Notes under the pieces: model-generated
Database searches by the model: none
Told to the model about the DNA's origin: nothing
The model's input: the letters and a program-made list of their open reading frames with translations, nothing else
Assembly: GCA_021808485.1 (NCBI GenBank)
Contig: JAKBBN010000002.1
Coordinates: 1 to 64,000, forward strand
Reading direction: 5' to 3'
DNA from: Planctomycetota bacterium
GTDB lineage: Bacteria > Planctomycetota > Phycisphaerae > WQYP01
DNA length: 64,000 nucleotides
Translations under genes and position numbers: made by a program
In this document: piece by piece, positions 1-8,562 of the stretch
Layout of the letters: the number at the start of each line of letters is the position of its first letter
How positions within the stretch are numbered: the stretch's first letter is position 1

Positions 1-160
1 CTTGTTCAAAAAGCTTTTTCTGCCATTCGTAGAACATGCCGGGTGTTATGCCATGTTTTTGGCACACATTGGAAACATTGGCCCTCTCAAGCAGGGCCTC
101 CCGCAGGATGGCCATCTTTTCCTCCCCGATATAGTTGCGACGTGGGTTGCTGCTGGACAT
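1..160 (-). CDS. IS transposase OrfA-type HTH protein (partial, N-terminal 53 residues)
   Basis: Reading the complement from the ATG at 160 gives a frame that stays open to the window edge. It begins MSSSNPRRNYIGEEK and continues through AILREALLE and KHGITPGMFYEWQKK. This is the N-terminal helix-turn-helix of the IS3/IS66-type OrfA transposase family (COG2963), which binds the transposon ends. AAGGAGT sits 6 bases before the ATG. The protein is cut by the window edge, so its length and integrity cannot be judged. The plus-strand open frame over the same bases is a shadow. The IS family assignment is inference from this short segment. Confidence 0.8.
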   Translation of the reverse strand, partial: MSSSNPRRNYIGEEKMAILREALLERANVSNVCQKHGITPGMFYEWQKKLFEQ

Positions 161-261
161 AAACGGACTCCTTTTCGGCACCAGATCATACCTTATACCA
201 AAAACCTGTTTCTCCTTTTCCGACTGAAGCAGAACATTCCGCTCATCGACAGCATCCGACA
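1..261 (-). mobile_element. Left portion of an insertion sequence, outer end tentatively near 261
   Basis: The transposase start lies at 160. On the minus strand, about 100 bases of leader precede it and contain TGTCGGATGCTGTCGATGAG beginning at 261, a plausible terminal sequence. The partner inverted repeat and any target duplication lie outside the window, so the boundary is a guess. The element sits at the end of the accessory block that contains the Rhs remnants. Confidence 0.4.
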
Positions 262-337
262 ATTGCCCTTATGAACCACGGGTCAGGCGATACGTGATGG
301 TCGCCGGGGTGGCGGGCAGTGGGCTATCCGCACGCCG

Positions 338-709
338 TTACGTATAAAGAAATGTACATATTAATGCTACAACACCAACTGCCACACCGAGCCCGCTTAT
401 AATGCAGCCGGCAATGGCAAGCGTACGCGGCTTTTTGCTCAATCCGGCCAGGCTGAGACCCAAGGCGACCGGTATAAGAATAAAGAAAGGCGGCGTCAAA
501 CTTACAATCGATGCAATAAATCCGAGCAGTCCCATCGTATTGTTTTCACGGGAAAAAAAGCCTTTCCGTGATTGTCCGTCCGCCAAGGCAGCCGCCGTCT
601 TATCCCCGGAGGCGCTGTGCGAAGAGCAGCCGCCAACTCCGTTCTCACCCGGCGGCGCCGTCTGCGCGTCAGAAAGCTCGCGCCCGCACAGCTTGCATTT
701 GTCAGCCAT
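338..709 (-). CDS. Small membrane protein, DUF4190-like, with one N-terminal CxxC
   Basis: A 123-residue protein of unknown function. It starts with CKLC (residues 5-8), as in a zinc-ribbon header, but no second CxxC pair is visible; only a lone Cys near residue 28 follows. Residues 10-55 are polar and low in complexity. Two hydrophobic segments follow (about 60-90 and 97-121), rich in Gly and small residues and separated by a basic loop SKKPR, as in DUF4190-type membrane proteins. GAGGA lies 7 bases before the ATG. It is the last gene before the IS, and the gene at 740 lies just upstream on the same strand. The DUF4190 likeness is from memory of the pattern. Confidence 0.6.
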   Translation of the reverse strand: MADKCKLCGRELSDAQTAPPGENGVGGCSSHSASGDKTAAALADGQSRKGFFSRENNTMGLLGFIASIVSLTPPFFILIPVALGLSLAGLSKKPRTLAIAGCIISGLGVAVGVVALICTFLYT

Positions 710-739
710 TTGTTAGTCCTCGCGATACAGGGGCCGCAT

Positions 740-1021
740 CTATTTATCCGAAAGCTTTACGTCCACTACATGGCCATTTTTGAAAATAACCGAGTACCGG
801 TATTCCTCCCAGCGCCACCAGGCATTTGCGTAGATGAGTACCGGCCCACCCCTGTAGGTGGCTTTTAATTCCGGTCTCCCCAGCCTTGCGATTACCTGGC
901 CTTCAGTAAGGCCGCGCAACCGCGACAACCTGTAGGCGGGATCCGGATATGAACCAAACCAAAGATAGGCGATCACCAGCACGACGGCCATGCCCGCTAT
1001 CAACAGGTCCCGTTTAGACAT
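740..1021 (-). CDS. Membrane-anchored small protein with a BamE/SmpA-like domain
   Basis: Ninety-three residues. An N-terminal membrane anchor (about 5-23) is followed by a short globular part with LRGLTEGQVIARLGRPE, then an aromatic strand region WWRWEEYRYSVIFKNGHVVDV. The pattern 'G-x-T-x-x-Q-V-x-x-x-x-G-x-P ... W/Y ... F-x-N-G-x-V' is that of the SmpA/BamE fold found in small periplasmic proteins. The ATG at 1021 was chosen over the longer frame to 1225 because GGGAGG lies about 8 bases upstream and the longer frame runs into a degenerate intergenic repeat. Function is unknown, and the fold is inferred from pattern only. Confidence 0.6.
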   Translation of the reverse strand: MSKRDLLIAGMAVVLVIAYLWFGSYPDPAYRLSRLRGLTEGQVIARLGRPELKATYRGGPVLIYANAWWRWEEYRYSVIFKNGHVVDVKLSDK

Positions 1022-1137
1022 TTCCGAACCTCCCGGAGCCGGAACGCGTCCGACCCAGCCGTCGGCCAGTCCGCGGATCGCCTGCCAGCGGCACAGGCCC
1101 GAATACCAGTTTGCCCGGCATTCCCGCCGCGGCGGCC

Positions 1138-1220
1138 AGGGCTTCCTGGCCTTGTGCCTGTATGCCTTTGTAGTGAAACTGTTCGTCCAGTGCGACCATG
1201 ATTTTCTTCCAATTGCTTTC
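1138..1220 (-). repeat. Degenerate short intergenic repeat, copy A
   Basis: On the minus strand this reads ATGGTCGCACTGGACGAAC followed by an imperfect run of 8-9 base units (CACTACAAAGGCATACAGGC, then ACAAGGCCAGGAAGCC). The same ATGGTCGCAC head is found near 4172 and 6216. The unit resembles the CACAAAGGCACAAAG-type elements often seen between genes in environmental bacteria. That comparison is from memory; the repeat itself is seen directly. Confidence 0.6.
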
Positions 1221-1271
1221 GCCATTGATCCTTGATTATTGGTTATTATTCGTTCACTTTTGCCGGTCCCT

Positions 1272-2246
1272 TTACAATCGGCCGGTCCGTTTCACAAGCC
1301 GCGCCGCCGGGCGAGCGTAATTTAAGAACATTTTCAGCTCGCGCAGAATGATAACGGCAGATATCGATGCGGCCATCGCGCCGAATAGCCCAAACTCTCC
1401 TAATACCCATAATTTCAGTGCGGTTACCTTATACACCACAAATATACACGCATCTGCATATGATGCAAAAGCTGAAAAACCCACAAGCGTAGTCGCCAGT
1501 CGCTTCCAAGGAGAAGAAAGCCCGGGCGCCGATAATCCTCCCGGACGCCACAGTCCAATGTAGATCAATAAGAGCCCGCTTATCAGGCATAAACTAAGTC
1601 CAGGCAGCATTAGTGGTTCCCATCCGGCTGGGTAGGCCCACGCCAGGACATTAGCGGCTGGTTTAACCAAGGCCATAATTGTCTGAATGAGCACGAACAT
1701 CCATAAACCCATGAGGATTCTTGCGACCAAATTGGTAAGCCATCCGGATTGCTTGCCGCCATCGGCAGATTTAGAACCAACGGCCGGTCCAGATTTTAAC
1801 ACCCTTAATAAAAGCCATATAAACACGATCGAGCCGAAACCCATGGAACAAATCGTGGCCGCAGCAGCGAGGGCCCCGAACACACCTACCCCGGCAACAT
1901 ATCCAGCAGGAAGCAGAGAAAAAGCGATTGCTTTCGCCCCTATGCCTACTATTATCAATACGCGGCCAATTAGCGCTAAATTGCGTATTATTCCCGGGAC
2001 CAATTTCCAATCGTTATAGGACACGGCGAACAATAACGTCAAGCAGGCAAGCGTCGGCAAGGTGCCCGATGGCCAATCTGCTATTCTTACCACGTACGTC
2101 CAAATGGGATCGCGGCCACCGTACTTTGCTTGATAGGCGAACAAATTTAAGTAGATCAGGATTGGAGCCAAGCTGGCCGCGCAAAGAGCCAGCACAAGTA
2201 CTACAACTGCGAGCATGGACGCGCGATCGGTGATCTGCACTTTCAT
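1272..2246 (-). CDS. Polytopic membrane protein of unknown function
   Basis: A 324-residue protein dominated by hydrophobic segments. I count about eight possible membrane spans, beginning with MLAVVVLVLALCAASLAPIL and ending near residue 300, followed by a basic tail (LVKRTGRL). No catalytic or transporter motif is recognised. A TTG two codons upstream extends the frame to 2252, but the ATG at 2246 has GGGGTG at better spacing (8 bases) and is preferred. It lies in the minus-strand run of orphan genes between the Rhs remnants and the IS, about 150 bases downstream of the beta-propeller gene. It could be an immunity-type membrane protein, but nothing in the sequence proves that. Confidence 0.6.
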   Translation of the reverse strand: MKVQITDRASMLAVVVLVLALCAASLAPILIYLNLFAYQAKYGGRDPIWTYVVRIADWPSGTLPTLACLTLLFAVSYNDWKLVPGIIRNLALIGRVLIIVGIGAKAIAFSLLPAGYVAGVGVFGALAAAATICSMGFGSIVFIWLLLRVLKSGPAVGSKSADGGKQSGWLTNLVARILMGLWMFVLIQTIMALVKPAANVLAWAYPAGWEPLMLPGLSLCLISGLLLIYIGLWRPGGLSAPGLSSPWKRLATTLVGFSAFASYADACIFVVYKVTALKLWVLGEFGLFGAMAASISAVIILRELKMFLNYARPAARLVKRTGRL

Positions 2247-2395
2247 TGCCAAAACACCCCGTACTCAATCCATGGCGATATTTAGCGTCGTGATGAACCG
2301 CCAGCCGGAACAAGCGGCTATACGAAAACGTTTTACCATTACCCATATCCTTTAGCAGCGGATATTAAATGACATTGATTGGCCCAATGATCCGG

Positions 2396-3586
2396 TTATC
2401 GCCTGATCGACCACTCCACCACATGTGTGCCCGGCGTTCCGGTGCTCACGCCGCTGGTAACAAATGTGTCGTTGTTTACCCACGTCCCGACGGCAAGCTG
2501 CCGACTGGGCCGAACCGGAGACTTCCATAAGACGTCCAGATTCTTCACATTGAGAATAAGCAGTTGCGTATATCCCTCCGGATTCGCCCCCAAACTGAAG
2601 GCATAAACGCAGCAGAGACACAGCCGGCCGTTTGGCGAAATCTGCAGTATTTCCGGCGACCATGGAAGCAGCGAACCGGACAGTCTGGCCAGCCGCCGTA
2701 ATGTCCACCGCCGGATACGCACAATCCCCATGCGGTTAACCAGTTCGATATGCCCCTGCGAGCCGACGAGGATGGCGCCGCCGCCGGGAGTGACAGTGCT
2801 TGCCACGCACAAACGAGGCGTGCGCGGGACAATAGGCGTCTCCTTTGCATTTGCTGCAGGAAGACCCTTCTTGATCGCCCATACCTGAATTGTCGGCGGC
2901 GGGTGTGAAATTGACGATCCGTGAATTGCCCCGATGTAACCTGGTGCGGTCGTCAGCCTGGAATGCAGCTGCGGGCGAAGTGTTTCCATCAGCCGGCCCG
3001 TGTGAACATCAAATAGCCGGGCTAATCCGCCCGCAAGCCTCACCACCGCAAATCGATGACCGATCAGCATTACCGATTTGGGGCGCGACACAATCGGATC
3101 CCGCCAAATCATTTTTGGACCGGATTCCGACATCCGGAGCATACAGAGGTTCTGGAACGCGGTATCGGCGTCACGCCAATTTTTCGTGGTCCTCCGGAAA
3201 GTGCAGCCGATGACGCAGTCGCCAATGGAAACTTCCGGATCAAACCACGTGCCGGCCGCCAACGGCTTTCCAACGGTGAACCAACGACCCAGTAGTTTGC
3301 CGGCGGGCAGCTGCCACAAATCGACACAATATTCGGGAGTCCCGAATTCGCGCGGATAGGCGTGGCCCGGAAGCGACGGATTCTGAGGCGATGAAAAAAG
3401 GGTTAAAATCCTGCCGTCCGCCGGCGGTCCAAGCAGCACACCCTGACTCGCAATAATTTTCCCGGTAATATGCAGGCCGCCGCTGCGTCCATCGGCACCG
3501 GCCGCACCGGGACAATCGGACACCAGCAGGCCCGCGAGCAGCGCGATCCCACCTACCCAAAAGAAATCGCGCCGTTTTTTTCGCAT
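2396..3586 (-). CDS. Secreted beta-propeller-like protein (paralogue of 4591-5787)
   Basis: A 396-residue protein with a basic N-terminus (MRKKRRDFF) and a signal peptide or anchor ending near GAAGADG. The body shows weak WD40/propeller-like blades: strand-rich segments such as RFAVVRLAGGLARLFDVHTGR and a late blade with EILQISPNGRLCLC. It ends HVVEWSIRR, much as its neighbour at 4591 ends IRLWAVARRP. Both have similar length, a signal peptide and the same strand, so I infer distant paralogy. The ATG at 3586 has GGAG 9-10 bases upstream; the frame to 3604 would need a TTG. Likely periplasmic or surface exposed. Ligand and function are unknown. Confidence 0.6.
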   Translation of the reverse strand: MRKKRRDFFWVGGIALLAGLLVSDCPGAAGADGRSGGLHITGKIIASQGVLLGPPADGRILTLFSSPQNPSLPGHAYPREFGTPEYCVDLWQLPAGKLLGRWFTVGKPLAAGTWFDPEVSIGDCVIGCTFRRTTKNWRDADTAFQNLCMLRMSESGPKMIWRDPIVSRPKSVMLIGHRFAVVRLAGGLARLFDVHTGRLMETLRPQLHSRLTTAPGYIGAIHGSSISHPPPTIQVWAIKKGLPAANAKETPIVPRTPRLCVASTVTPGGGAILVGSQGHIELVNRMGIVRIRRWTLRRLARLSGSLLPWSPEILQISPNGRLCLCCVYAFSLGANPEGYTQLLILNVKNLDVLWKSPVRPSRQLAVGTWVNNDTFVTSGVSTGTPGTHVVEWSIRR

Positions 3587-3656
3587 CCTATGCTCCGAAC
3601 TCAATCAAATCCGCTGCAATCACCCAGGTTCGTATGGCGCAGCCCAGGGGCGATAG

Positions 3657-4085
3657 TCAGTCATGATAATAAACCACAATACCCCGCTCGGATTGCCGCT
3701 CAAGCGTGATGGTCACCCGGCCGTCGGGACTCTCGTAAAACGGAACCTTTACAATGTGGTACCGCCTAAATGCACTTTCATCCAGGTTATACCAGCGGTG
3801 AAACGTTACGCCGTTAATCCGAACCGTCTTATCCGCAGCAAGGAGCCGTGAAAGCGGTGACCGCCGCGGCACGCGGCTTATCTTGATTTTCAATATAAAC
3901 TGAAATTTTCCATTGGAAAAAGGGACAACAAGCGCTGTCCCCGCCTTGATTGGTCCCACGAAATCGGATTTTTGAGGCACACGGCGTCCGCAACCGGCTG
4001 CAAAAAGTGAGAATAACAGCAGAAGCAACCACAATACCGGTGGGCTGCCAATTCGCTTGCCCGCAACGTCAGCTTTTGTTTTCAC
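3657..4085 (-). CDS. Putative lipoprotein of unknown function
   Basis: About 142 residues. A hydrophobic stretch VLWLLLLLFSLFAAGCG gives a signal peptide with a lipobox-like AAGC, so the mature protein would start at that Cys and be lipid-anchored. The remainder has strand-like segments (GTALVVPFSNGKFQFILKI, GRVTITLERQ) and no known motif. The start is uncertain. A GTG at 4085 gives a normal signal peptide. The open frame continues to an ATG at 4172, but those extra 29 codons lie wholly within a repeat element that also occurs upstream of the 740 gene and in the Rhs remnant. It may use the repeat-borne start, giving 171 residues. Confidence 0.5.
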   Translation of the reverse strand: MKTKADVAGKRIGSPPVLWLLLLLFSLFAAGCGRRVPQKSDFVGPIKAGTALVVPFSNGKFQFILKIKISRVPRRSPLSRLLAADKTVRINGVTFHRWYNLDESAFRRYHIVKVPFYESPDGRVTITLERQSERGIVVYYHD

Positions 4086-4094
4086 GGATTGCGT

Positions 4095-4176
4095 GCATTG
4101 ACCGCGGCAGACCCGACCGCTTCGCGGCTTTGTGTCGCCGTTTTGCTGACAATGTTCGTCCAGTGCGACCATAAAC
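4095..4176 (-). repeat. Degenerate short intergenic repeat, copy B
   Basis: The minus strand reads ATGGTCGCACTGGACGAACA, then about 35 bases that include CGACACAAAGCCGCGAAGCG, which is shared almost exactly with copy C near 6165-6217. It lies directly upstream of the lipoprotein gene and supplies an in-frame ATG for it. Boundaries are approximate. Confidence 0.6.
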
Positions 4177-4256
4177 CTGCCTTGAAATAGGTCGACGTAA
4201 TCCTGATAGTTGAATCATACGCCGGCAATCGCGGTGTGCCAAGGCAATTCACCTTC

Positions 4257-4390
4257 TTAGCCATCAATTATTGCGATAACCGAGTTGCCCTTACCATCAA
4301 CGCTTACCGTCTGGTTCCCCCGGCTGTCATAGCCGGTAAGGGTGAAGATGGTCGCTGGTTGCGAACCCTGACTGGCTGGTTTTGGCGCCC
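4257..4390 (-). pseudogene. Rhs/YD-repeat fragment (C-terminal scrap with stop)
   Basis: Complement translation gives SQPATIFTLTGYDSRGNQTV followed by SVDGKGN and a TAA stop at 4257-4259. GYDSRGNQ ... DGKGN is the tyrosine-aspartate repeat of Rhs proteins, large secreted toxin-delivery or surface proteins made of many such repeats. Only one to two repeats remain and there is no start, so this is a remnant. A second Rhs fragment lies at 5899-6080 on the same strand, with an intact gene between them. Confidence 0.7.
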
Positions 4391-4590
4391 CCCCGCGACA
4401 GCATAGAAACGGGTCGCTCGGGTGCGTGACAATCTACGCGGGCCGAGTTTGCGGATTAAAGGAGTGTTGATATTTTCTAAAGACTTTTGGCTTTGGTTGC
4501 ACCCTATAGCCGCTTTTACGACCAAACCACGAAGGTCGGGCTAACGAAAATAAGCGGCTCCCAAATCAGGAGGCCAATTCAGGCCCGTTA
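4391..4590. other. Non-coding stretch between Rhs scrap and beta-propeller gene
   Basis: No supported gene. With the adjoining Rhs scrap and copy B, it makes up the roughly 500 bases between the genes at 3657 and 4591. A run of seven C lies near 4388-4394. The short minus-strand frame through 4304-4525 is the wrong frame of the YD remnant. Confidence 0.5.
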
Positions 4591-5787
4591 CTAAGGTCTG
4601 CGTGCGACGGCCCATAGGCGAATCGAGCCTGCGGTAGCGCCCAAAAGTTCCCGCCCGTTCGGCGACAGCGACGCCGACCACAGCCCGCCCATAATTGCGC
4701 CAGATTTTGCCACCGCATCGCCGGTCTTCAAATCGAATACAATATACCTTCCAAACCCACCCGGAAAGGGTTGTCTAATATCGCCGCTTACCTGCTCGGC
4801 AATGGCCGCGACCTCACCTTTCGCCGCTACTGAAAGGCACGTTCCCATCGCATTAAACCAAGGATTCCGTCCTCCTGTCGCGCTCAGTTTTCGCGCCAGA
4901 CGGTTGGGAAATCGGAATGCGCGCTTCAGTCGTCCGGAGGCAGCCGTATAGACCCACACCGGCAATTCCGCCTTGGTCCCGCTCCAACCTGAGCAGACCA
5001 GGATGTTACCGGCGTCGGCCGGAATCATGCAAGAAAAGCCGCTTCGCTTGCGATCGGCCATCGCCTTGCGGTATATCATTCGGCCACCCGGCAAGGTCCA
5101 TGCCATAAGGTGCTGCACCGAGGCGGCAACGATCCTGTCACCGCCAGCGAAACATATCCCTACCAGGCCGCCTGAATTTTTTAGGTTTGGCAGCGGGAGC
5201 CGGAATGCAATCGTTCCTCCTTTAACCCGCACGACATGTAAACTCCCGTCGCTGCCGCGAAACACGATGCGCCGCCCGTGTAATGACAGTGCGAGGTGAG
5301 CCGGGCCAGTCCGGAAATTGCGAGCCCTGTGTAGGACTATCCGACTGATACAACGCTTGCTTTTCACGCTCCAGATGCAAATAGCAGGCACCCCCCCCGG
5401 CCCGGTTATCGAAGACGCAAACACCGCGCCATCGCCGGAGAGACACCCTCTGGCTGAATAATGGACCTTTAATTCCGGTGAGATCTGCGAAAGGTCCTGG
5501 TGGATAATCCCGTGAGTGCCCAGCGGTGAACCAAAGCCCAGCGATGGCCACCAGTTATGCGCTGTAGCGATGGATGTCGGTCCCGTCCAGCGGCTTTCCA
5601 CGACGCCATGAACCCCATCGGGCAGGAACTGTACAAATTGGCAACCAATTAGGGCATGATTGGAGGGCCAGAACCGGAGAACGCTCACCTTTCGGGGGCC
5701 GTCGGCCCTAAGGCCAGCTGCGCAAAATGAAAGAAAAACAATCACGGCTGCCAACCATGGAGCCAAAGAACGAGATGTCCCCATCAT
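4591..5787 (-). CDS. Secreted WD40/beta-propeller-like protein
   Basis: A 398-residue protein with a clear signal peptide (hydrophobic LAAVIVFLSFCAAGLRADG). Repeated blades of about 40-50 residues follow, several ending in aromatic-x-hydrophobic strands, for example AICIWSVKSKRC, IVFDLKTGDAV and the last blade WSASLSPNGRELLGATAGS followed by IRLW. This is a WD40-type propeller, probably a periplasmic scaffold. No enzymatic motif is seen. Two adjacent ATG codons (5787, 5784) follow AAGGGTG. It is flanked on both sides by Rhs fragments and resembles the protein at 2396. An eight-base G run interrupts neither frame nor blade (complement of 5391-5398). Confidence 0.7.
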   Translation of the reverse strand: MMGTSRSLAPWLAAVIVFLSFCAAGLRADGPRKVSVLRFWPSNHALIGCQFVQFLPDGVHGVVESRWTGPTSIATAHNWWPSLGFGSPLGTHGIIHQDLSQISPELKVHYSARGCLSGDGAVFASSITGPGGVPAICIWSVKSKRCISRIVLHRARNFRTGPAHLALSLHGRRIVFRGSDGSLHVVRVKGGTIAFRLPLPNLKNSGGLVGICFAGGDRIVAASVQHLMAWTLPGGRMIYRKAMADRKRSGFSCMIPADAGNILVCSGWSGTKAELPVWVYTAASGRLKRAFRFPNRLARKLSATGGRNPWFNAMGTCLSVAAKGEVAAIAEQVSGDIRQPFPGGFGRYIVFDLKTGDAVAKSGAIMGGLWSASLSPNGRELLGATAGSIRLWAVARRP

Positions 5788-5898
5788 AAAACACCCTTAA
5801 AAATATTGCTATTCCGCCCGCCGGGCCAGGGCTTCGCATTCTTGGATATGGGCTGGGCCGCCCGCTGCGCGAGGCGAAGGCAGCCCGGCGACGGAGAG

Positions 5899-6080
5899 CA
5901 GGTTAATCTGCAGGCATTCATCAATGTATGTGCCCCATACATATTGCTTCGTTGGCGTATCAGTGCTGCCGCTACCGCCGAACGGATTTCTTTCCTCCAT
6001 CGTCTGCCATCCCTGCCAGACGTAATCCGTTGTGCCATTGGGAATGTTGCCCGTCAGCCCGCCGTTGGGATAATTGCCAG
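5899..6080 (-). pseudogene. Rhs core C-terminal fragment
   Basis: The complement encodes NYPNGGLTGNIPNGTTDYVW, then QGWQTMEER and KQYVWGTYIDECLQ. 'DYVWxGWQ-x-x-EER ... QYVWG-x-Y-I-D-E' is the hallmark of the end of the Rhs core, just before the variable toxin tip. The similarity ends near 5899, where the frame runs into unrelated sequence, and upstream it is fused to short repeats rather than to further YD repeats. It is therefore a remnant of a once larger gene read toward lower coordinates. Confidence 0.75.
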
Positions 6081-6081
6081 C

Positions 6082-6126
6082 CACAGAGATCACAGAGGAC
6101 TCAGAGGCCGCAGGGGCCGCAGGGGA
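6082..6126. repeat. Five-unit 9-base tandem repeat
   Basis: Read on the plus strand the units are CACAGAGAT, CACAGAGGA, CTCAGAGGC, CGCAGGGGC and CGCAGGGGA, exactly 9 bases each. This is the CACAGAGGA-type short tandem element often scattered between genes in environmental genomes (from memory). It abuts the Rhs fragment directly and keeps its reading frame. Confidence 0.75.
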
Positions 6127-6154
6127 TTTGCCATAGCGCCCGAATCGGTCCTTC

Positions 6155-6230
6155 CGGCGGCGACCGCTTCGCGGCCTTGTGTCGTTGCGGCAAAGTTTTT
6201 CGCCAAGTGCGACCATGCAGCTTTCCCAAT
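6155..6230 (-). repeat. Degenerate short intergenic repeat, copy C
   Basis: The minus strand reads ATGGTCGCACTTGGCGAAAA, then CGACACAAGGCCGCGAAGCG. It shares the head with copies A and B and the tail with copy B. The bases just before the head (GATTGGGAAAGCTGC) also resemble those before copy A (AATTGGAAGAAAATC), so the shared unit is somewhat longer than the head. Confidence 0.6.
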
Positions 6231-6702
6231 CTCGATCAAAATGATCATGGAACCACTTTACCACAAATCCCCGGTTTGCAAACCATCAGGTATTGGCCGG
6301 ATTGGAAATACCCGGCTCTGCCCTAAAACCGTCCAAGTGGAGCGCATTGCGTATATTCACAACACCGCGCCCCGCAACGGCAAGGTGTTTGCGTATGAAA
6401 CGACACGGGCTTGCGGATGCGCCATGAGCAGTAGTCAGTTATCGGTGGGCGGGCAATGCCTCGGGCGGCGGAAGGAATAAGGCCGCATCGGTACGCGGCT
6501 TGAAAAACCGGCGGTCAATTTTCATGTATACCCCAACCGGCGATGATCCGCCGATACCCCGGCTGCCGTTCCAAGACAGAGCCTTGCCCCCTATTGGCCA
6601 ATGAACGCTTTACCGGTATTCTGCACCACGGAAACGATGGCGTAACCACGCAGACGCGGCGGCGGACAACTTGGAATTACCGAGCCGGAAAGGTCCGTAT
6701 TT

Positions 6703-8562
6703 ATGCAGTCCATACCCAATCAAAATCAGGCCGCCCCCACACCCCCGCCGGTTGCGGATTTCAGCCGCCAATCCCGGCACACCGCGGACAACATTCCACC
6801 CGGCTTTCCTTCCGTGCCGAACGCCCGCGCCGCGGCTTGGATACGCTGGTGCACGGATATGTGCCGTCCGGACCGCGTCGTACTGTTGGACGGCACGCCG
6901 CGGCAGCGGGCCCAATTGCTGGAACAGGGCGTCGCCGAAGGCGTTTTCATCCGGCTCAACCAATCCCTGCTGCCGGGCTGTTACCTGCACCGCTCCAATC
7001 CCAATGATGTCGCCCGCTCCGAACAGAACACCTATATTTGCACACCGGCTCGCGATATGGCCGGCCCCACGAACAACTGGCTGGACAGCCGCTCCGCCTA
7101 CGAAACACTGCGCAAACTTTTTGACGGCTGCATGGCCGGGCGAACACTCTACATCGTTCCATTTGTGATGGGGCCGATCGGTTCTCCGCTCACCCGTGTG
7201 GGCATTCAGTTAACCGACAGCCTGTATGCGGCCGCGAGCATGGGCGTTATGACGCGCATGGGGGATATTGCGTGGGAGGTGCTGGGTCAAAGCGATGATT
7301 TCACGCACTGCCTGCACAGCATCGGCGACTGCGATCCGGACCGCCGCTACATCTGCCATTTCCCGCTGGATAACACCATATGGAGTTTCGGCTCCGGTTA
7401 CGGCGGCAACGCCCTGCTGGGTAAAAAGTGCATGGCGCTGCGGATAGCCGGTTTCCAGGGTTTCGCCCAGGGGTGGATGGCCGAGCATATGCTTATCAGC
7501 GGGGTTCAAATCGACCATGAAAAAACCTATGTTGCCGCCGCATTCCCCAGCGCGTGCGGCAAAACCAACTTCGCCATGCTTATCCCCCCGGATGATTACA
7601 AACGCGCCGGCTGGCGGGTATCCACCGTTGGAGACGACATCGCCTGGATGTGGGTGGACCATGCCACCGGACGCCTGCGCGCCATTAATCCCGAAGCCGG
7701 CTATTTCGGGGTTCTGCCCGGCACCAGTCCGGCCACCAATCCAAACGCCATGGCCGCCATGGCCCGTGATACGATTTATACCAATGCCGCACTGTTGCCG
7801 GATGGCGATGTCTGGTGGGAAGGTAAAACAGCGCATCCCCCCGCCCACTGTGTGGACTGGCTCGGACAACCCTGGACACCCGGCTGCGGGCGAAAGGCCG
7901 CCCATCCCAACAGCCGCTTCACCGCCCCCATGCGGAATAATCCCGCATTGGACCCCGCCGCCGAAGACCCGGCCGGAGTGGAAATAAGTGCGATTATTTT
8001 CGGCGGACGGCGCTCCAGCGCCGTGCCGCTGGTCTACCAGGCATTTAACTGGATGCACGGGGTATATGTGGGGGCTACGCTCGGCAGCGAAACCACGGCG
8101 GCCGCATCCGGAAAAATTGGCGTGGTCCGCCGCGATCCCATGGCCATGCTGCCCTTCATCGGCTACAACATTCGCGACTATTTCCTGCACTGGTTCCGCA
8201 TGCGCACCGCCATGACCGATTGCCCGCGCATATTCCATGTCAACTGGTTTCGCAAAAACAGCGGCGGCGGGTTTATGTGGCCCGGCTTCGGCGAAAACAT
8301 CCGCATCCTGGAGTGGATCATCCACCGCTGCCGCGGCCGGGCATATGCCATGGAAACGCTTCTGGGCTGGATGCCCCGCCCGGAGGACATCAATTTGAAG
8401 GGCCTCGCACTGTCACCGGCTGATTTCGCCGCCGCGCAAAAGGTTAATGTGGAAGAATTCAAGGCGGAAATCCTGGCGGAAGAAGAGCTTTTCATTAAAC
8501 TTGCCGGGGACCTGCCCAAGGAGATCATCTTCATCCGCGAACTGCTGATCAGCCGCCTGTAA
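6703..8562 (+). CDS. pckG: Phosphoenolpyruvate carboxykinase (GTP)
   Basis: A 619-residue cytosolic enzyme converting oxaloacetate plus GTP to phosphoenolpyruvate, CO2 and GDP (EC 4.1.1.32), the entry step of gluconeogenesis. The length matches the GTP-type family, and its signatures are present. The P-loop FPSACGKTNFAML (about 281-293) carries the hyper-reactive Cys. GDDIAWM (about 310) is the metal/nucleotide site, and FGGRRSSAVPLVYQAFNW and WPGFGENIRILEW are further conserved blocks. The substrate loop region SGYGGNALLGKK is intact. GGAAAGG lies 9 bases before the ATG. It begins the plus-strand housekeeping run. Confidence is high because several family blocks are exact. Confidence 0.97.
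   Translation: MQSIPNQNQAAPTPPPVADFSRQSRHTADNIPPGFPSVPNARAAAWIRWCTDMCRPDRVVLLDGTPRQRAQLLEQGVAEGVFIRLNQSLLPGCYLHRSNPNDVARSEQNTYICTPARDMAGPTNNWLDSRSAYETLRKLFDGCMAGRTLYIVPFVMGPIGSPLTRVGIQLTDSLYAAASMGVMTRMGDIAWEVLGQSDDFTHCLHSIGDCDPDRRYICHFPLDNTIWSFGSGYGGNALLGKKCMALRIAGFQGFAQGWMAEHMLISGVQIDHEKTYVAAAFPSACGKTNFAMLIPPDDYKRAGWRVSTVGDDIAWMWVDHATGRLRAINPEAGYFGVLPGTSPATNPNAMAAMARDTIYTNAALLPDGDVWWEGKTAHPPAHCVDWLGQPWTPGCGRKAAHPNSRFTAPMRNNPALDPAAEDPAGVEISAIIFGGRRSSAVPLVYQAFNWMHGVYVGATLGSETTAAASGKIGVVRRDPMAMLPFIGYNIRDYFLHWFRMRTAMTDCPRIFHVNWFRKNSGGGFMWPGFGENIRILEWIIHRCRGRAYAMETLLGWMPRPEDINLKGLALSPADFAAAQKVNVEEFKAEILAEEELFIKLAGDLPKEIIFIRELLISRL

Follow-up and report, generated by a model that had tools for sequence, protein, structure and literature searches.

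In a planctomycete genome we found a run of minus-strand genes that we read, with moderate confidence, as the eroded end of an orphan Rhs module array in which a common head leads the modules. Rhs proteins are bacterial competition toxins. According to the explanation proposed here, displaced Rhs ends, made up of the pre-core or core, a variable tip and the immunity-type genes downstream of it, would be headed by a common module, the head, giving a promoter, a start codon and a short leader. The fragment would thereby become an ORF able to start by itself, with its immunity gene behind it. The displaced ends would probably have been put behind the heads by homologous recombination in the shared pre-core or core sequence. 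At the locus studied here the Rhs parts would later have been trimmed, with loss of core and tip, and the secreted and membrane genes downstream left intact, so that the likely present role of the locus would be the expression of orphan immunity or accessory proteins.

Sequences and searches

The stretch of DNA analysed (the window, 64,000 nucleotides) is C58:1-64000 of a draft genome, a 3.30-Mb MAG of 147 contigs. Contigs of this genome are designated C, the family genomes compared with it G and the loci examined L. Eight Rhs ORFs of near-full length (2094-2194 aa), from relatives of the same family, served to build the Rhs profile HMM, which comprises 2129 positions and was searched against six-frame translations. 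One of its eight members, L101, matches YD_repeat_2x and Rhs_assc_core, the latter at residues 1897-1964. For counting heads, a match was merged into a better one when their starts lay no more than 150 nt apart, and a truncated type-B copy at C125:1486-1573 was absorbed in this way. Promoters were scored in 61 heads with 75 nt of upstream sequence, leaving out 5 of 66 (short upstream sequence, poor anchor, the copy in genome G017). Divergence was estimated on six copies with the same join, trimmed of non-homologous tails.

Results

Between positions 338 and 6286 of the window, every feature of interest is on the minus strand. They are adjoined by a gene of the opposite strand, PEPCK (GTP) (6703-8562, plus strand; Pfam PEPCK_GTP, E 4e-149), a housekeeping gene that borders the array and stands outside it. 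At the other end, the contig start cuts the N-terminus of a transposase (2-160, minus strand; Pfam HTH_Tnp_1, E 4e-8). Ten relatives have a PEPCK match, and the locus was compared in six of them; none of the six holds an Rhs match, but a search of those stretches did not find any of the four genes to the right of PEPCK either, which leaves them uninformative about this site. The PEPCK gene of the window is only 50-51% identical to those of G006:C96 and G008:C25 and 67-74% identical to those of other family genomes, so that the family perhaps carries two lineages of this gene.

Two Rhs fragments were identified in this region by the profile search, as the sequence-only reading had proposed. The first, at 4260-4373 (minus strand), is a YD-repeat fragment matching profile positions 1236-1273 (E 9e-12) and closed by a TAA stop at 4257-4259. 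The second, at 5884-6066 (minus strand), matches positions 1765-1825 (E 1e-28); it had been taken for the end of the Rhs core, and its place in the profile, upstream of Rhs_assc_core, makes it a pre-core segment instead. Searched with the Rhs profile, no part of the window matches Rhs_assc_core, the region of the DPIG motif, and a toxin tip is absent as well; head-led ORFs elsewhere do carry Rhs_assc_core, with a DPIG motif read by eye. The window holds a conserved piece of Rhs and no variable tip; relatives have both. Pfam and NCBIfam gave no match in the ORF that carries the pre-core fragment (5809-6264, minus strand), and at the YD fragment (4260-4373) their scan covered another frame only.

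Both fragments have relatives elsewhere in the genome. The pre-core segment has seven further matches, on contigs C66, C115 (two), C33, C65, C135 and C39, six of them at E<=2.4e-8 and the one on C39 weak (E 0.06); in the Rhs ORFs of about 2100 aa found in related genomes it forms an internal part. The 4260-4373 fragment is approximately 90% identical in DNA over 117 nt to C66:20628-20744, and the stretch 4090-4400 has 27 matches in the genome, itself included, at E<=1. On their strand the two fragments stand in reversed order, the more 5' one being the more C-terminal, and no single colinear long ORF joins them, which suggests that they derive, most simply, from two different Rhs copies. Three contigs, C111, C119 and C47 (L047, L056 and L043), terminate inside or next to Rhs sequence at the pre-core or core, suggesting that full-length rhs genes were broken by the assembly.

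The pre-core segment belongs to a truncated ORF of 135 aa (5809-6216, minus strand) consisting of a leader, a linker, the pre-core and 20-odd unmatched residues before the stop, without core and tip. Its linker of 150 nt is in frame, and both other frames contain stops. The leader is part of the head, a dispersed repeat composed of a promoter-like region, a start codon and a conserved leader, MVALxExFHHNGT. When copies were aligned, the most recurrent part proved to be this stretch upstream of the pre-core copies. The head occurs three times in the window (6179-6286, 4137-4174 and 1163-1202, minus strand) and had been overlooked in the first reading.

The heads fall into types according to their upstream sequence. 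Type A was aligned from nine copies of the window's genome and ten of relatives (alignment A1); most of these have a palindrome, GGTTTGCAAACC, lying across the -35-like hexamer. The 12 copies of type B, all from the window's genome, share a different upstream sequence in which an invariant GGAG precedes the start codon, TTG in all but one copy (CTG). A third type, C, presents TTGGCA and TATGAT separated by 17 nt. The head at 6179-6286 (minus strand) is of type A (model match E 1.5e-25), with the leader ATG at 6216, a -35-like TTTGCA inside the palindrome GGTTTGCAAACC (about 6284-6273) and a -10-like TAAAGT (about 6260-6255), which is degraded relative to the family consensus TAGAAT. Its promoter score is 8/12, and it is not among the sites of a general promoter scan of window 1-6700, which found 5 sites vs 4.1 in shuffled sequences. 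The second head (4137-4242, minus strand) has the type C upstream sequence at 4242-4214, a leader start at 4172 and a scan score of 10/12. Of the third (1163-1202, minus strand) there is the leader part only, with a start at 1199 and no clear promoter (7/12).

Among the 61 heads scored, 42 reached at least 9/12 of the sigma-70 consensus, vs 4% of random positions in the same loci. In 52 of the 61 the best promoter-like pair ends 32-42 nt before the start, across several upstream types; copies within one type share ancestry and hence are not independent in these counts. From these features we infer promoter activity of the heads. As an RNA element the head was rejected: covariation was absent (0/22 predicted pairs with changes on both sides) and no stem-loop is conserved. 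An exact degenerate pattern, a weak test of phage origin, found no head in viral contigs.

Loci of the window's own genome contain 29 head matches, 22 near-complete and 7 partial, the three of the window included. Near-full-length type-A matches were obtained in the window's genome, in five genomes of genus g3 and on one contig of G017, and strong type-B matches in the window's genome only. At E<=1e-3 the type-A and type-B models match 9 and 7 of the 28 family genomes, many of these matches covering the leader only. Among these 28 genomes, head-model matches are limited to the window's genome and genus g3, plus the single G017 contig, which is counted here as a copy, and is perhaps a binning error, in view of its 99.97% identity to C66. 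That identity extends over the 2966 nt shared by the end of C66 (L036 17035-20000) and the G017 contig (L109 1-2966); a recent transfer or a contig binned twice could account for it, and some binning error is possible. A search with the leader/pre-core alignment gave 20 loci, in MAGs of Planctomycetota or Phycisphaerales. Linker motifs such as CCTCTGTGATCTCTGTGGC (window 6080-6110; query ~160-215) match by themselves, with no other part of the head, in many relatives, including some of other families.

In the loci examined, 24 of 66 heads are followed on the same strand by Rhs sequence within 800 nt, a proportion biased by the choice of the loci, which was made by head or Rhs hits. For the window's genome the count is 10 of 29 heads, and a further three, on contigs C135, C80 and C39, keep shorter pre-core pieces. 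In 23 of the 24 head-Rhs pairs the two parts are in frame and the frame is open, the exception being a second head before an already paired fragment. After removal of that second head (in L140) and of the 99.97% identical G017 copy, all 22 remaining pairs are in frame and open, vs 6 and 4 of 22 for the other two frames. With linkers of at least 100 nt the frame is open in 19/19, vs 4 and 1 of 19 in the others. The joins differ from one another: 15 different linker lengths occur, and the Rhs part begins at profile positions varying from 1634 to 1915. Near-full-length Rhs genes have no head in the 482-4258 nt upstream of them (7/7; the eighth starts at a contig edge).

Head-led ORFs are often short (73-545 aa among the 21 listed) and many end without a core; these features, together with one in G027 that is split over two ORFs, suggest that many may be relics. 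One in G025 (L113 6716-7591, minus strand; no Pfam match) runs past its Rhs part into what we take to be transposase-like sequence.

Between the two Rhs fragments of the window lies an intact gene (4591-5787, minus strand; 398 aa) with a hydrophobic N-terminal helix, for which the sequence-only reading had predicted a propeller fold. An AlphaFold2 model from six sequences agrees with this (pLDDT 76, pTM 0.81): it comprises the N-terminal helix and 27 strands, which would make about seven blades, and its best PDB matches are WD40 propellers. Its product, which may be an orphan immunity protein or an accessory one, shares 50% identity with a protein of C47 (22904-24319) that adjoins an Rhs core fragment. 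A weak homologue (25% identity, E 6e-7 in a set of 457 proteins) is encoded in G012 (L100), directly after a near-complete Rhs ORF of 2127 aa, open at the contig start, whose end it overlaps. At E<=1e-6 the propeller was found in 1 of the 28 family genomes, the window's own.

Further downstream on the same strand, the second head opens an ORF of 171 aa (3657-4172) that has the leader in frame and appears lipoprotein-like from VLWLLLLLFSLFAAGC, read by eye. An internal GTG start is possible, and the first 32 aa match a head-led ORF of C61. It is followed by genes for a secreted-looking protein of 402 aa (2396-3604), 16% identical when aligned with the propeller set by sequence alone, and for a multi-pass membrane protein of 326 aa (1272-2252), so described by eye. 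An ORF at 740-1225 overlaps the third leader in another frame, and the start of its membrane protein is probably internal to it. Across 81 aa it shares 37% identity with translated plus-strand sequence of C135 located about 0.7 kb before a head. Pfam gave no match for the 171-, 402- and 326-aa products.

The last gene of the run (338-709, minus strand; 123 aa, no Pfam match) encodes a protein with a Cys-rich N-terminus and membrane helices, recognised by eye. G019 and G027 have an Rhs-tip block whose third gene is its relative, with 43-45% identity. In G019 the block consists of an Rhs ORF, open at the contig start, a membrane protein of 260 aa and the Cys-rich membrane protein; the three counterparts in G027 (66, 47 and 73% identity) stand behind a head, with the Rhs part spread over two ORFs. 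A homologue of a gene that neighbours an Rhs tip elsewhere is thus present in the window with 338-709, and more weakly with the propeller, at 25% identity; of the array genes, 338-709 is the one most firmly connected with Rhs tips. Orphan immunity or accessory functions are probable for the propeller, the lipoprotein-like ORF and the membrane proteins. Rhs remnants accompanied by orphan cassettes or immunity genes, the general idea put forward in the sequence-only reading, are retained here, and its single split Rhs gene is given up.

Alternative explanations

The head-led Rhs ORFs could also be intracellular toxin-antitoxin pairs, as in the orphan rhs of Salmonella, and not serve immunity only. 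For this possible, though doubtful, reading there is the Salmonella precedent itself (PMC7043789, as far as its available text goes), and relatives do have open head-led ORFs with a core and variable ends. Among eight such ORFs chosen, five exceed the NCBIfam cut-off for Rhs_assc_core (32.5 bits) and the others score 30.7, 28.3 and 18.9, and their C-terminal ends differ. Against it, the window has no tip, and in 10 head-led ORFs Pfam detected no toxin domain, only one sub-threshold RHS_repeat.

An unlikely reading is that of a head which plays no active part, a dispersed repeat (perhaps a seed of recombination or a small mobile element) that happens to lie beside Rhs remnants, with open frames inherited from a few ancestral joins. 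Such a repeat would fit the 42 of 66 heads with no recognisable Rhs within 800 nt downstream, the linker part (query ~160-215) that matches by itself even in other families, and the dN/dS of leader plus linker, about 1.1, by which no amino-acid constraint was found there; translation of the leader is suggested by the open frames and the gap lengths. In nine copies, every gap within leader and linker has a length divisible by three; two gaps in C80, of 33 and 11, belong to a non-homologous tail. Against a passive repeat count the 22 joins out of 22 in frame across 15 linker lengths, the promoter-like pairs at similar spacing in several upstream types, and the confinement, within the 28 family genomes, to genus g3 and the window's genome (one suspect contig apart). 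In the six copies compared, the pre-core differs by 0.51 at synonymous vs 0.11 at other sites, the leader by 0.22 vs 0.18 and the linker by 0.12 vs 0.15. Between C58 and C66 the synonymous difference is 0.09 in head and linker vs 0.50 in the Rhs part. The Rhs part has thus diverged with constraint on its protein and the head without, and neutral sites of Rhs show more divergence than the head. Recombination that exchanges heads or tips, or a constraint on the head at the DNA level, would either of them explain this.

That one resident Rhs gene decayed in place, the propeller having been inserted into it, was the interpretation of the sequence-only reading, and it accommodates a propeller flanked by two Rhs fragments of the same strand; the reversed profile order (1765-1825 lying 5' of 1236-1273), which would call for an extra rearrangement, and the relatives of both fragments elsewhere in the genome make it very improbable. 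Direct repeats on the same strand ahead of successive genes could also point to a cassette array, integron-like or otherwise site-specific, that recombines at the head. This is hardly credible: the genome has four Phage_integrase matches, of which one on C61 (about 54 kb away from the heads of that contig) and one on C128 (where no head was found) span the full domain, one on C101 is short, and one on C39, with a head at a distance of about 3 kb, does not reach the cut-off; no linked recombinase of this family with a structured recombination site was found, the stem-loop not being conserved (0/22 predicted pairs changed on both sides), and the join points vary.

Within the preferred reading of an array of orphan Rhs modules, a further proposal is made tentatively: the head may be a self-spreading start module, copied by recombination onto ever-changing Rhs ends and providing each tip with a promoter, a start and an N-terminal tag. 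The low divergence of head and linker would be expected if heads are exchanged between Rhs ends; constraint at the DNA level would look similar. The common N-terminal tag itself might serve in delivery or regulation. If the proposal is true, this clade maintains an expressed library of tips and antidotes under constant renewal.

Comparison with known systems

No description of such a head was recognised among the papers listed in literature searches on Rhs orphans, their starts and leaders, propeller immunity proteins and planctomycete Rhs or polymorphic toxins. The comparisons below refer to the available parts of the papers cited. The orphan rhs tips of Enterobacteriaceae mostly have no signals for initiating translation (PMC3967940); they are located downstream of full-length rhs genes, and tips are exchanged between orphan and full-length genes (PMC3150448, PMC3967940). 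The array described here resembles these orphan rhs-CT/rhsI modules (PMC3150448, PMC3967940) in its displaced Rhs ends, its conserved coding stretch and its linked immunity-type genes, and differs from them in that the ends are led by a common non-Rhs head with promoter, start and leader that is dispersed across the genome.

In Salmonella, an internal promoter before the main and orphan tips was demonstrated to drive toxin-antitoxin pairs (PMC7043789). Like this promoter, P2, the head places one shared promoter, here promoter-like only, before many tips, which could thereby be made without the delivery part. P2 lies inside the conserved rhs region, whereas the head is outside Rhs, occurs with several upstream types and has its own start codon and leader (PMC7043789). 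Polyimmunity loci and standalone toxin cassettes were described for polymorphic toxin systems by Zhang 2012 (PMC3482391). With these loci the window shares presumed immunity genes in runs of one orientation; polyimmunity loci are, in the available text, never interrupted by toxin genes or cassettes (PMC3482391), whereas here Rhs remnants and heads are interspersed.

The head offers a sequence handle for orphan immunity genes missed by the family models tried (Pfam, NCBIfam). Orphan Rhs tips could be silent stores, banks of antidotes or toxins expressed inside the cell, and a clade with a common, repeated promoter and start on displaced Rhs ends would make this question directly testable. Compared with the systems above, a separate, dispersed module of promoter, start and leader would be a variant of the orphan-rhs theme.
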